A stretch of 64,000 nucleotides of DNA, taken from assembly GCA_019746095.1 (NCBI GenBank), contig JAIESL010000057.1, forward strand, positions 1 through 64,000, read 5' to 3'. Positions 545 through 6,730 of this stretch are shown one piece after another (the first letter of the stretch is position 1; each line of letters starts with the position of its first letter). The position numbers and the translations under genes were made by a program. The notes under the pieces are model-generated. The model made no database searches, was not told where the DNA came from, and worked only from the letters and a program-made list of their open reading frames with translations. Source of the stretch: Caulobacteraceae bacterium (GTDB lineage Bacteria > Pseudomonadota > Alphaproteobacteria > Caulobacterales > Caulobacteraceae).

Positions 545-1063
545 ATGGCCGAATCCAAGACGACCGCCCCCCGGCTCAAGAACGAAGCCGAGATCGACAC
601 CACCCTGGTGCGGTCGCTGGCCGACATCCTGAACGACACCTCCCTCACCGAGATCGAGGTGGAACGCGGTGAACTTCGCATCCGCGTCGCCCGCGAACTG
701 GTGGCCGCCCCGGTCATGCAATATGCCGCCGCCCCGGCCCCGGTCGCCCATGCGCCTGCCGCCGCTCCGGCCACCGCCGCCCCGGCCGCCATGCCGTCCG
801 ATCCCGCCACCATCGTCGCCAAAAAGGGCGAAGAGGTGAAGTCGCCGATGGTCGGCACCGTCTATCTGCAGGCCTCCCCGGAAGCCCCGCCCTTCATCGC
901 CGTCGGCGACAAGGTCAAGAAGGGCCAGACCCTGCTGATCATCGAGGCCATGAAGACCATGAACCCGATCCAGGCCCCGCGTGACGGCGTCGTGGTCGAG
1001 GTCCTGGTCGGCGACGCCCAGCCGGTCGAGTTCGGCGAACCCCTCGTCCTGCTCGAGGCCTGA
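545..1063 (+). CDS. accB: acetyl-CoA carboxylase biotin carboxyl carrier protein
   Basis: C-terminal biotinyl motif '[11 protein letters not shown]'; Ala/Pro linker; followed by accC. Confidence 0.96.
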
Positions 1064-1070
1064 GACGGCC

Positions 1071-2423
1071 ATGTTCACCAAGGTCCTGATCGCCAACCGC
1101 GGCGAAATCGCCCTGCGGATTCACCGTGCCTGCAAGGAGATGGGCATCTCCACCGTCGCAGTGCACTCCGAGGCTGACCGCGGTGCCATGTGGGTCCGGC
1201 TGGCCGACGAGAGCGTCTGTATCGGCCCGGCGCCCGCCGCCAAGAGCTATCTGAACATCCCCTCGATCATCGCAGCGGCCGAGATCACCGGGGCCCAGGC
1301 CATTCACCCCGGCTACGGCTTCCTGTCCGAGAACGCCCGCTTCGCCGAGATCGTCGAGGCCCACGGCATGACCTTCATCGGTCCCAAGCCCGAGCATATC
1401 CGGGTCATGGGCGACAAGATCACGGCCAAACAGACGGTGCTGGAAGCCGGCATCCCCTGCGTGCCCGGCTCGGCCGGCGAGGTCGAGACCATCGAGGACG
1501 CCATCGCGGCTTCGAAGACCATCGGCTTCCCCCTGATCGTCAAGGCTGCCGCCGGCGGCGGCGGGCGCGGCATGAAGGTCGCCCTGACCGCCGACGATCT
1601 GGTCGAGGCCGTCCAGACCGCCCAGTCCGAGGCCACCGCCGCCTTCGGCAACGGTGCCGTCTATATGGAGCGCTATCTCCAGAAGCCGCGCCACATCGAG
1701 CTTCAGGTCGTCGCCGACAGCCACGGCAATGTCGTCCACCTCGGCGAGCGCGACTGTTCGCTGCAGCGCCGCCACCAGAAGATCCTCGAGGAAGCCCCCT
1801 CGCCCGCCCTGTCGGCGGCCGAGCGTGTCGCCATCGGCGAGACGGTCAACAAGGCCATCGCCGCCATCGGCTACCTCGGCGTCGGTACCATCGAATTCCT
1901 CTGGGAAGACGGCGAGTTCTTCTTCATCGAGATGAACACCCGCCTCCAGGTCGAGCACCCGGTGACGGAAATGATCACGGGCGTCGATCTGGTTCGCGAG
2001 CAGATCCGCATCGCTGCCGGCCTGCCCCTGTCCTTCACCCAGGCGGATGTGAAATTCACCGGCCACTCGATCGAGTGCCGGATCAACGCCGAGAACGCCG
2101 AGACCTTCACCCCCTCGCCCGGCACGATCACCTCCTTCCACGCCCCGGGCGGCCTGGGCGTCCGTCTGGATAGCGCCATCTACGCCGGCTATTCGATCCC
2201 GCCCTATTACGACAGCCTGATCGGCAAGCTGATCGTCCACGGCCGCGATCGCGAGGAATGCATCGCCCGCCTGAAGCGCAGTCTGAACGAGATGGTCGTC
2301 GGCGGTATCGACACCACCATTCCCCTGTTCCAGAAGCTGCTGCAGGAGCCCGACATCCTGTCCGGTGACTACGACATCCACTGGCTCGAAAACTGGGCCA
2401 AACGCCAGAAGGGCGAGGCCTGA
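1071..2423 (+). CDS. accC: acetyl-CoA carboxylase biotin carboxylase subunit
   Basis: [26 protein letters not shown]...; '[12 protein letters not shown]' ATP-grasp; '[24 protein letters not shown]'; ATG at 1071 inside the longer track ORF. Confidence 0.97.
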
Positions 2424-3115
2424 GCGACCCGGGCTTCAGCGCCGGCGGACCCTTCGGCGGCTTCGGTCCCGACGAACTGCTGAACTGCTACGCCACCGGC
2501 GTCTTTCCGATGGGGGAGGCCCGCGACGATCCGCGGATCTTCCTCGTCGAGCCCGACCAGCGCGGCATCATCCCGCTCGACGGCTTCCACGTCCCGACCC
2601 GGCTCAGGCGCACCGTCCGCGCCGACGGCGTCACGGTCCGGGTCGACACCGCCTTCGACGCCGTCCTCGACGCCTGCGCCGCCTCCGGCCCGGGCCGGGA
2701 GGAAAGCTGGATCAATGCCCCCATCCGCCGGCTCTACATCGAGCTGAACGCCCGCGGTCAGGCCCACAGTATCGAATGCTGGCGCGACGAGACCCTCGTC
2801 GGCGGCCTCTATGGCGTCACCCTGGGCGGGGCCTTCTTCGGCGAAAGCATGTTCAGCCGCGAGCGCGACGCCTCGAAGATCGCCCTCGTCCATCTCGTCG
2901 CCCGGCTGAGGCGCGGCGGCTGGCGGCTGCTGGACACCCAGTTCCTCACCGGCCACCTCAGCCAGTTCGGCGCGATCGAAATACCCAGGATCGCCTATCT
3001 CAAGCGCCTGCAGACGGCCCGGCCGCTAAGGCCCAATATGCGTTCGCTGTTCGAGCCGATGACTGGTTCGGAGGCGCTGTTCTACGCCTTGCAGCCGACG
3101 ATCCAGGCGTCATAG
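2420..3115 (+). CDS. aat: leucyl/phenylalanyl-tRNA--protein transferase
   Basis: '[18 protein letters not shown]' then '[32 protein letters not shown]'; conserved residues lie upstream of the ATG at 2510, so the start is probably CTG 2420 overlapping the accC stop. Confidence 0.88.
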
Positions 3116-3732
3116 ATCGGATGCTGCAGGCCACTGACAGCCGGCGAGGACGCGAACATCCAGCCCCGGAAGATCTGCCTCGGCTCACTGACCTGGATCA
3201 CACCCCGCGGCTGCAGGCTGACTTCCAGATAGGCGACCGCGTCCGACACCTGTTCGTCCGAGCCGGAAACCTCACAGGCGCGGGCCGTAATGATCAGGGT
3301 CTTCTCGAACCGGACCGGACGCCCGCCGACCTCGACCTCGAATCGCATCGATTCGGCCGTGATCTTGTCGATGGCCTCGACGATGGCGACGCGACGGCGT
3401 TGACGGCGCGAGGGCGCAGCCGGGGCCTCGGCACGGGCCGGTGCCTCTTCCGCCTTCTCTTCGCCCTCGGTCGTTTCCTCCGCCCCGTCCACAGCGACGG
3501 GAACATCAGGGGCCTGTGCGACCGGCGTGGTCTGCCCGACAGCCCCTTCGGGCGCAGGCTCAACGGCCGGGGTCGTCACCGCCGGCGAGGCCTGCCGGTT
3601 CAACGCCGCCGTGGAATCCTGGATGGGAACGGCGTCCTGGGGCAGGTCATTGATCGCAGAAGCCAGCACCCCGCCGGAAGCCAGCAGCGCCGCCGCCGTC
3701 ACACCGGCCAGGATGGACCCGCGAACCTTCAT
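3082..3732 (-). CDS. DUF2155 domain-containing protein with N-terminal signal/anchor
   Basis: '[20 protein letters not shown]...[11 protein letters not shown]...[31 protein letters not shown]' resembles the DUF2155 C-terminus; start at MKVRGSIL. Confidence 0.82.
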
Positions 3733-4148
3733 TCTGGACGCCAGGCTTCGTAGTCGCCGGTCGCCGGCGGCCGGACACCGTCCGCAGCCAGCGAACCCTT
3801 CGGCCGCCACGCCATCGGTGTGCCCGTCAGATTGGGCAGATGGTCCTCTTCCCACGACCGGCGCGGAAGAGGCTGATCCGTCGGCAGGTCATCGTAGGTG
3901 TAGTGGAGCCAGCCATGCCAGTCCGGCGGCACCTTCGAGGCGTCAGCATAGCCGTTGTAGGTCACCCAGCGGCGGCGGCGACCATCATAGCTGGAACGAT
4001 CCCGGGACAGGTAATAGCGATTGCCGAACTCATCTGTCCCCACATGCTCGCCGCGTTTGGCGATCGTGAAGAAGGTGCCGATGGTGGCACCGCTGGTCCA
4101 GCCGAAAATCCTGCCTAGCACGTCGGAAATCCACTCACGTTCGGTCAT
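3729..4148 (-). CDS. NADH:ubiquinone oxidoreductase accessory subunit, NDUFA12 family
   Basis: 'GEHVGTDEFGNRYY...RRRRWVTYNGYADASKVPPDWHGWLHYTYDDLPTD' NDUFA12/B17.2 signature; start at MTEREW. Confidence 0.92.
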   Translation of the reverse strand: MTEREWISDVLGRIFGWTSGATIGTFFTIAKRGEHVGTDEFGNRYYLSRDRSSYDGRRRRWVTYNGYADASKVPPDWHGWLHYTYDDLPTDQPLPRRSWEEDHLPNLTGTPMAWRPKGSLAADGVRPPATGDYEAWRPE

Positions 4149-4324
4149 CCGGCGGGGTCCGGGACACGGCAGCATCATAGAAAGCGCCACGGCCCGCGTC
4201 CAGCACCCCGCGATCCTGGACCAACTCAACATCTTGGGGGTAACCGACCTGCAACACGCCAGATTTATTGCTGGACCCCGGATAGGCCGCTAACCTCAAA
4301 GAAAGGTCACGTCGAGATTGCCGT

Positions 4325-6730
4325 ATGCGGTTTCCCTTCGCTTCTCTCGCCGCCGAGATGCACCGCCCAACTCGCGAGGTCGAGCGCGCGGACCGGATCG
4401 TCTCCGTGCGCGCACCCGCAGCCTGGACGGACGTACAGGTCGAAGCCTGGCTGGACTGGGCCGACTCCGAAGACCTTGCCGCGGATGGTGAAGACCCGCT
4501 TTCAGAGGCCGCCATAGCCTGGTGCCGGCGACTTTCCCCGAGTCGGGCCGAAACCCTGGCTGCGACCCTGATCCTGGGGATGGCCACCCCGGCCCGAACA
4601 ACCGCAATCGCACCTGGCCAGACGAACCTGTCCGAACCCGATGCAGCGCGACGCCTTCGGGCAGACGCGGCCCTTCACCGGGCTGAACGCCTCTCGGCGG
4701 GAGCCCTCGCAGCGATGACCGCAGCCCTCGGACATGTGTCCGATGCTGTCACTCGCTGCGAAGGATCGCCTCTCGATTGCGCGGATCCCTCGCGCAACCC
4801 GGCCCTGGCGCGCGCCGCACTCGCGGCGCGCAAGACCGGGGCCGCCGACGCCGACCTCAACCGGGCCATGCAGGGAGAGCGGTTAGACGTCGGTTTTCGG
4901 CCCACGCCCCCCTCCTCCCTCAAATTGGCGATCGCCGACCGTGCCATGATCGCTTCCGGCGCGCCCGAGGCGCTTCTGGCCGCCGAAGTCGCCATGGATG
5001 GCCACCTCATTCTCGCCTTCGACCCGACTACCGCCGAGGCAGTTTCGCAGTCGGAGGAGGCACCCGGAATCCTTCTGTCCCTGCCTTCTCTTGCGCAGGC
5101 CTTCGGATCCGGTTTTGACGCCGCGCTCAGCGAGCTTGCGAGTCTCTGGACGGCCGCGATCACGGATGGCGGTGCCGAAATGGTGGCGATCGGGCTCGGC
5201 GGACTGAGTGACCATTTGCTGACGACATCCGATCCGATCGACCTGACCCGCGCCAGGCAAATCGGAGAGCATGTTCGGGCCGCAGCGGGTGAGGTCCCGG
5301 TGGCGCTTTTCGTAGACGATGCGGAGGCCGCCCTACGACTGGGCCTGTCGCGCCTTTCGGTCCTCGAAGGCTGGCAGACCGTAGACGGCGAGGTCGCCCA
5401 GCGCCTGCGCCCCGCCCTGGCCGTCGCGATCCAGCGGAGCGGCGGCGAAGTCGAAGCGGCCGAGCGTCACCTGTTCGGACGGCGGACCTTGATCGATGCG
5501 CCGGGGGTGAACCACTCCGCCTTGCGGGCGAAGGGCTTCACCGATGTGGAGTTGGACGCCCTCGAACAGGCTCTGGCGGAAGTCAGCCGCCTGGACGATG
5601 CCTTCCAGCCGTCAATGCTGGACTCCGGCTTCATGCGAGATGTGCTCGGATTTGAAGGCGTTGCGCACGATATCCTTTCACAACTCGGCTTTTCCGGCCC
5701 GGACATCGCCGCTGCCGAAGCCTGGGCGGTTGGGCATGGTGATCTGGCAGGATGGGACGGCGTCCCCGACCCGCTTTCGGCCATCCTCTCCGACCCCGAC
5801 GCGTTCGAGGCCAGCGTTCGCGCCGAACTGGACTCCGTCAGCGCGATCCCGGACCTGACCCCGGTGATGCTCGACTGGCGAGCCACGGCAGCCCAGGCCG
5901 CTAGGCTGCTGTCTGACGCAGCAAGAGAAGGGCACCGCGCCATTCGGTTGCTGCGTGCCGCTCCGCCTGCCGGCCCTCTGCTCGACCTGACAGAGCCTGA
6001 ACCAGCGCCCCGGGTGCGTCGGTGGGAGCCAGAGGCGAAAGCGGTCGAGCGCGTCGTCGAAAAGGTCGTCGAACGCGAGCGCACCCGTCGCAAACTGCCC
6101 GACCGCCGCAAGGGCTACATCCAGAAAGCCGCTGTCGGTGGACACAAGGTCTACATCCACACCGGCGAGTACGAGGACGGTGAGCTCGGCGAGATATTCA
6201 TCGACATGCACAAGGAAGGTGCCGCCTTCCGGTCGCTGATGAACAATTTCGCCATCGCGATCTCCATAGGACTGCAGTACGGCGTGCCCCTGGACGAGTT
6301 TGTCGATGCCTTCGTCTTCACCCGCTTTGAGCCGGCCGGGACGGTGACGGGGAACGATTCAATCAAGTCGGCGACCTCGATCCTGGACTACATTTTCCGT
6401 GAGCTCGGCGTCTCCTATCTGGACCGGCATGAACTGGCCAACGTCGCACCCGACCCCTTGAGCGCCAACGGACTCGGGATGCTGGAGGGCGAGGGCGATA
6501 CCCCCGAAGCCGTGCCGGCTGCCCGGTTCATATCCAAGGGCTTCGCGCGCGGCGCAGCACCGGACAATCTGGTGGTTCTGCCCTTCGGACAAAGGCGCGA
6601 GACCCCGATAACGCCCCAGGCAGCCACCGAGGCAGTTGCCTGCCCCGCCTGCGGCGACTTCTCGCTCCAGCAGCGCGGCGCAGGATGGATTTGCGACACC
6701 TGCGGCGCAGCACCGTCGATGCAGGGTTGA
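4325..6730 (+). CDS. NrdJ-like (B12-dependent ribonucleotide reductase-related) protein with TSCPD-type C-terminus and zinc ribbon; central region without cysteines
   Basis: 801 aa; '[79 protein letters not shown]...[26 protein letters not shown]' matches NrdJ C-terminal region; CPACG...CDTCG ribbon. Confidence 0.82.

Follow-up and report, generated by a model that had tools for sequence, protein, structure and literature searches.

A class II ribonucleotide reductase gene without catalytic residues in Caulobacterales, very probably retained for its C-terminal TSCPD module

The ribonucleotide reductase (RNR) R1 homologues of betaherpesviruses are catalytically dead and have taken on another role. 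They resemble the protein described here in being an RNR large subunit that has lost catalysis and, in our case probably, been repurposed, but they belong to class I, are viral, have a separate origin and have no TSCPD module. The alphaproteobacterial NrdJ (PRK07562; AdoCbl-dependent; structure 7B9P) shares its locus, its accessory insertions, a TSCPD module and a zinc ribbon with our protein, which is shorter (801 vs. ≈1,220 aa) and lacks the thiyl-radical Cys, the redox pairs and the PTGT loop.

Two other class II systems are useful for comparison. In the split RNR of Pseudomonas aeruginosa, NrdJb consists of an IscU-like domain and a zinc ribbon without a barrel (PMC4520616), an arrangement also seen in the module-only proteins of the alphaproteobacterial family f12 described below. 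NrdJb serves the NrdJa barrel and carries out dithiol exchange, whereas the f12 proteins read have no redox Cys and a class II barrel gene was not found in the family. In NrdJd of S. nassauensis, zinc is bound by Cys920/923/936/939 while Cys933/945 form the shuttle pair (Loderer, 2017; PMC5704485). The four zinc Cys lie at equivalent positions in our protein and the TSCPD/IscU-like part is common to both, but the equivalents of Cys933 and Cys945 are lost and electron transfer is not expected. NrdJd also forms CRD-dependent oligomers with dATP/dGTP (Loderer et al.; PMC5704485). Burnim et al. (2022; PMC9669993) described part of the class II RNR fold as IscU-like, reporting no role for it and suggesting oligomerisation. 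We found no report of a dead NrdJ, or of a function for TSCPD, in the open-access literature.

The window analysed here is a stretch of 64,000 nucleotides from a Caulobacteraceae genome whose named close relatives are Brevundimonas. The gene and its surroundings are as follows.

981–2423, plus strand: accC, ancestral nrdJ neighbour (synteny)
2510–3115, plus strand: aat, ancestral nrdJ neighbour (synteny)
3082–3855, minus strand: DUF2155 protein, ancestral nrdJ neighbour (PF09923; synteny)
3729–4232, minus strand: NDUFA12 homologue, divergently oriented to the dead nrdJ (PF05071; synteny)
4325–6730, plus strand: predicted dead class II RNR (NrdJ) orthologue, 801 aa (ORF; profile-profile alignment with NrdJ)
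4325–4609, plus strand: residues 1–95, remnant of the NrdJ N-terminal region (hhalign)
4706–4882, plus strand: residues 128–186, remnant of a TACO1/YebC_N-like insertion (PF20772 comparison)
4883–5437, plus strand: residues 187–371, decayed barrel in which the NPCSE finger-loop thiyl Cys and the PTGT loop are absent (alignment; Foldseek match to 7B9P)
5438–5764, plus strand: residues 372–480, retained class II accessory insertion, GTLxxAPGxNHxxLxxKGFT... (match to 7B9P residues 710–830; alignment)
6086–6445, plus strand: residues 588–707, near-invariant TSCPD (IscU-like) module (PF12637; 55-sequence alignment; dN/dS ≈0)
6527–6568, plus strand: residues 735–748, post-module motif (invariant columns in alignment A1)
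6641–6703, plus strand: predicted zinc ribbon, CPAC...CDTC (Cys column table compared with Loderer, 2017; PMC5704485)
6796–8268, plus strand: two pentapeptide-repeat genes immediately following the dead gene (synteny)

The first-pass annotation had recognised an NrdJ-like TSCPD region near the C-terminus, and both Pfam and NCBIfam place it there, at nt 6086–6445. TSCPD (PF12637, E = 4e-10) is the only Pfam family matched by the ORF, and the NCBIfam model for B12-dependent RNR, PRK07562, matches with E = 8.6e-99 and 332 bits, below its cut-off of 1737. The count of seven Cys also proved correct, with three early in the protein (residues 67, 145, and 152) and four in the ribbon (773, 776, 790, and 793).

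The same annotation had read decayed NrdJ segments in the N-terminal part, and these are real. Profile-profile comparison with hhalign of 28 dead relatives (alignment A1) and 18 true alphaproteobacterial NrdJs (A2) aligned 832 columns from end to end with probability 100 and E = 4e-151. The NrdJ segment around residues 158–280 (numbering of the NrdJ at locus L065), which includes the first redox Cys, C197, is deleted after residue 95 of the window protein. The AlphaFold model of the window protein has a mean pLDDT of 80, mostly >85 for residues 1–550. The best Foldseek match in the PDB is the class II RNR of R. sphaeroides (7B9P, E = 5.1e-11), and the first 39 matches, significant or not, are all RNR chains. 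The low TM-scores (0.42) are what a truncated barrel would be expected to give. Judged from these alignments, the N-terminal 550 residues are NrdJ minus the catalytic segments, with no foreign domain. Fusion to an unrelated N-terminal domain, with no RNR fold in residues 1–590, is therefore ruled out by hhalign and Foldseek together.

True alphaproteobacterial NrdJ contains an insertion (residues 294–369 of L065) that resembles the N-terminal domain of TACO1/YebC. It matches PF20772 with E = 1.3e-5 in the whole NrdJ and 8.7e-7 as a segment alone, below the Pfam cut-off in both cases, and the YebC/PmpR NCBIfam model with E = 8e-6. The corresponding window segment (4706–4882) alone gives E = 0.087, and the insertion persists in the dead proteins in a decayed state.

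The Cys columns were read from a single alignment that combined 55 catalytic-type NrdJs with 120 dead sequences (175 in all). All 55 true NrdJs have the active-site redox pair, the thiyl Cys and the PTGT loop, as well as six C-terminal Cys wherever the C-terminus is complete and aligned. No member of the dead set (0/120) has the thiyl-radical Cys of the NxCxE finger loop, the PTGT loop or either C-terminal redox Cys, and the active-site redox pair (C197/C485 of L065) is gone as well, with C197 gapped in 120/120 and C485 replaced. The four Cys predicted to bind zinc are all kept in 109 of the 120, including the window protein. The mapping agrees with the earlier claims that the barrel has no catalytic Cys and that the terminal Cys after the ribbon is missing; the redox Cys before the CxxC is missing as well. 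Since the thiyl Cys, both redox pairs and the PTGT loop are all absent, no ribonucleotide-reductase chemistry would be possible, and a zinc ribbon without its shuttle Cys should have a structural role only. The zinc ribbon is lost and the module kept in one Asticcacaulis-like genus (g14; L056, L152–L155, and L159–L161). A pseudoenzyme is a conserved protein that has lost catalysis and serves a non-catalytic role; with its conservation and its lost catalytic residues, the protein is a candidate pseudoenzyme.

Upstream of the dead gene in Caulobacteraceae, Maricaulaceae and Hyphomonadaceae lie accC, aat, DUF2155 and NDUFA12. The same set, whole or in part, is found upstream of true nrdJ in Hyphomicrobiales, Kordiimonas, Pelagibacteraceae and others (L063, L077, L080, L097, L110, L111, and L115). 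The window gene is thus the positional orthologue of nrdJ and, as far as sequence and gene order can tell, decayed in place. As the gene occupies the ancestral nrdJ locus, the enzyme would have died where it stood across most Caulobacterales. The first-pass annotation had taken the gene for a paralogue, a reading that this synteny rules out. Whole-length homology and the shared locus make the protein a member of the class II RNR lineage by descent; its lack of the thiyl Cys, the redox pairs and the PTGT loop and its score below the PRK07562 cut-off set it apart from class II RNR as an enzyme. The pair of pentapeptide-repeat genes, whose first member has a start resembling a signal peptide, adjoins the dead gene in taxa ranging from Brevundimonas to Maricaulis. 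Neither was found beside true nrdJ in the loci seen.

One sequence (L047, positions 1–2119, from Brevundimonas UBA2388) joins an intact NrdJ barrel to a dead-type Brevundimonas tail. It looks like an evolutionary intermediate, but we consider this the less likely reading, because the barrel is nearest (72%) to a Hyphomicrobiales NrdJ and the join lies inside the most conserved DNA. It is more likely an assembly chimera, or otherwise a recombinant.

Relatives of the dead gene with intact frames were found in 109 of 119 Caulobacteraceae genomes, which means that the window ORF is neither a chance ORF nor the product of a local frameshift. This family-wide pattern also disposes of a frameshifted or misassembled true nrdJ, which the first-pass annotation had named as the alternative to be excluded. 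By score, with the 120 dead sequences inspected individually, 200 Caulobacterales genomes divide into 49 with a full or nearly full catalytic-type NrdJ, ∼140 with the dead type and ∼11 with neither. The dead proteins of Caulobacterales form one clade relative to true NrdJ in the longer alignment, with support of 99/97.

Class I NrdB is present in 198 of these 200 genomes, and the two without it carry a full NrdJ. A class I NrdA-type barrel was found in 61/61 Brevundimonas genomes, and in about 14 of them it is accompanied by a class II RNR from another subfamily, short but intact. The genome of the window has both; its short class II RNR (G000:C38, L001) lies on a 7.1 kb contig and has its own Cys-rich tail.

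Selection was estimated as dN/dS by NG86, which gives crude rates, with the module taken as 116 codons (window codons 590–705). Over 15 closely related pairs of dead genes (dS 0.15–2.1) the median dN/dS was 0.000 for the module and 0.16 for the N-terminal part. The module of true NrdJ gave 0.004–0.077, save for a single outlying pair in which one gene is truncated. Between Brevundimonas and Maricaulis the module is 87–88% identical, compared with 75% for accC and 66–67% for aspS. By these comparisons the tail of the dead protein is at least as constrained as that of the live enzyme. The broken frame and relaxed selection of a pseudogene were not seen. Alignment, Foldseek and dN/dS thus agree with the earlier proposal that the protein derives from an RNR, no longer catalyses, and is very strongly constrained in its C-terminal module. 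In dead pairs the synonymous divergence of the module is often clearly lower than that of the N-terminal part, which may reflect the usual dN-dS correlation or an extra constraint at the DNA level.

A class-wide search of Alphaproteobacteria for the module identified two further lineages that have lost catalysis, family f12 and the genome G511 (family f134). Family f12 has streamlined genomes of ∼1.3 Mb, and 27 of 32 have a module match, while no class II barrel was found in any of the 32. The module ORF is typically ∼280 aa, with a few matches cut or of other frame length, and class I NrdA was seen in most of the genomes. The f12 proteins read have a new N-terminus of ∼70 aa followed by the module, the post-module motif and a four-Cys ribbon, and have lost both redox Cys. 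The post-module motif is recognisable in the free-standing module proteins in the module-only alignment too. Where the locus was read (L219–L233 except L232), the gene lies at accC-aat-DUF2155-...-NDUFA12, the old nrdJ locus. Mean identity within f12 is 91% for the module and 44% for the flanks.

In G511 the dead NrdJ is 918 aa long and shows a loss pattern peculiar to it. The two near-identical copies in this genome (L207/L232 and L216; contigs C3 and C13), one of them ended by a contig edge, may have arisen by recent duplication or from the assembly. The module tree places G511 with Oleispirillum (99/94) and f12 with other groups, and a single clade for all non-catalytic proteins is rejected (p-AU 0.013). 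This tree is short (127 columns) and does not separate one loss from several inside Caulobacterales. Comparison of the sequences shows at least three independent losses of catalysis with the module retained.

The reverse case is found in genome G326. Its 902-aa NrdJ (L201/L210; G326:C1:1106544-1108709) has intact catalytic residues and an intact redox ribbon, but the module is lost and the insertions are shortened; no TSCPD module was found elsewhere in the genome. This suggested that the YebC-like insertion, the 372–480 insertion and the module form an inseparable unit, an idea we dropped because G511 keeps the module without the 372–480 insertion and f12 keeps the module alone. Some relatives (G049, G066, G183, and others) have lost the module altogether, and it is therefore not universally essential. 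Module matches in phage and plasmid searches lie inside NrdJ-like genes where annotated.

We conclude that nrdJ very probably decayed in place and was retained for an RNR-independent role of its C-terminal module. Catalysis and module are separable both ways, small genomes have kept the module on its own, and its sequence hardly changes, all of which argues that the module has a function of its own. On balance we favour the view that the TSCPD (IscU-like) module is an autonomous domain whose conserved role in the cell has nothing to do with ribonucleotide reduction. The NrdJ of Alphaproteobacteria would then be bifunctional, and several lineages would have kept the second function only, down to a 280-aa protein at the old nrdJ locus. 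In such a scenario the ancestral alphaproteobacterial nrdJ would have lost catalysis where it stands, with class I NrdAB taking over dNTP supply; the co-occurrence of the genes suggests that catalysis was shut down once class I RNR sufficed. The gene would have been kept for the module, the post-module motif and usually the structural zinc ribbon, and the former barrel in Caulobacterales may now be a mere scaffold and dispensable. The module itself may work by binding, as a scaffold or regulator, to some partner or ligand that all Alphaproteobacteria have. We favour such a scaffold or regulatory role, possibly in nucleotide metabolism. By analogy with a true NrdJ, whose oligomerisation is driven by the CRD, the module probably forms oligomers.

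The main rival is a tie to class I RNR, in which the module would be an accessory or regulatory subunit and adjust the supply of dNTPs by binding to NrdA or NrdB. Class I RNR was present in every dead-protein genome examined and NrdA in most module-only genomes, and the CRD is a part of an RNR that shows dATP/dGTP-dependent oligomerisation in S. nassauensis NrdJd (PMC5704485). But the module is nearly the same in true NrdJ, and the equal constraint there is not accounted for by a partner found only with class I; we consider this explanation a serious one that is nevertheless unlikely to be right.

A module that acts as a so far unrecognised enzyme, or that senses a small ligand, is a little less probable still. 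Such a role would fit its many invariant polar residues (Y11, H20, E28, D40, H42, K43, E44, R49, Q64, N90, D101, R105, and E106 in A3 numbering), but TSCPD domains have no known chemistry and no family beyond TSCPD was matched. The AlphaFold model of the module is weak (pLDDT 68) and gave no significant Foldseek match, with IscU chains appearing only at E ≥ 1.6. Sensing of cobalamin, suggested in the first-pass annotation, is not upheld, as the AdoCbl-binding barrel is largely gone in the window protein and absent in the module-only proteins.

Electron transfer in trans to NrdJ or NrdA, on the model of P. aeruginosa NrdJb, whose IscU-like domain and zinc finger come from a gene other than that of the barrel (PMC4520616; PMC9669993), is highly improbable. 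The two Cys needed for dithiol exchange are lost in 120/120 dead proteins and in the module-only proteins read, no class II barrel that could act as a partner was found in family f12, and the short NrdJ of the window's genome has a Cys-rich tail of its own. Partnership with a true NrdJ, also proposed earlier, is not supported, since a class II RNR is missing from most carriers (in Brevundimonas, about 14 of 61 genomes have one) and from f12. A decaying pseudogene or a sequencing or assembly artefact would account for the loss of all catalytic residues and the fast evolution of the N-terminal part, but can practically be dismissed given intact frames in nearly all genomes, agreement between independent assemblies, a dN/dS of 0.16 in the N-terminal part and ≈0 in the module, and one old clade.

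An RNR-independent role of the module, which we prefer, can be studied apart from dNTP synthesis because module and catalysis are separated in both directions. It also bears on Caulobacter crescentus, where CCNA_01966 has been drawn as a B12-dependent NrdJ (PMC6538847) and named a B12-dependent RNR (PMC5869019). The C. vibrioides control genome contains a TSCPD protein below the PRK07562 cut-off, and a C. vibrioides MAG locus at the accC-aat-aspS site (L061) is of the dead type. We infer that CCNA_01966 is the dead nrdJ gene; the dead type apparently extends across most Caulobacterales, C. crescentus included. CCNA_01966 is thus very probably no working RNR, which changes the B12 and dNTP models of Caulobacter crescentus.
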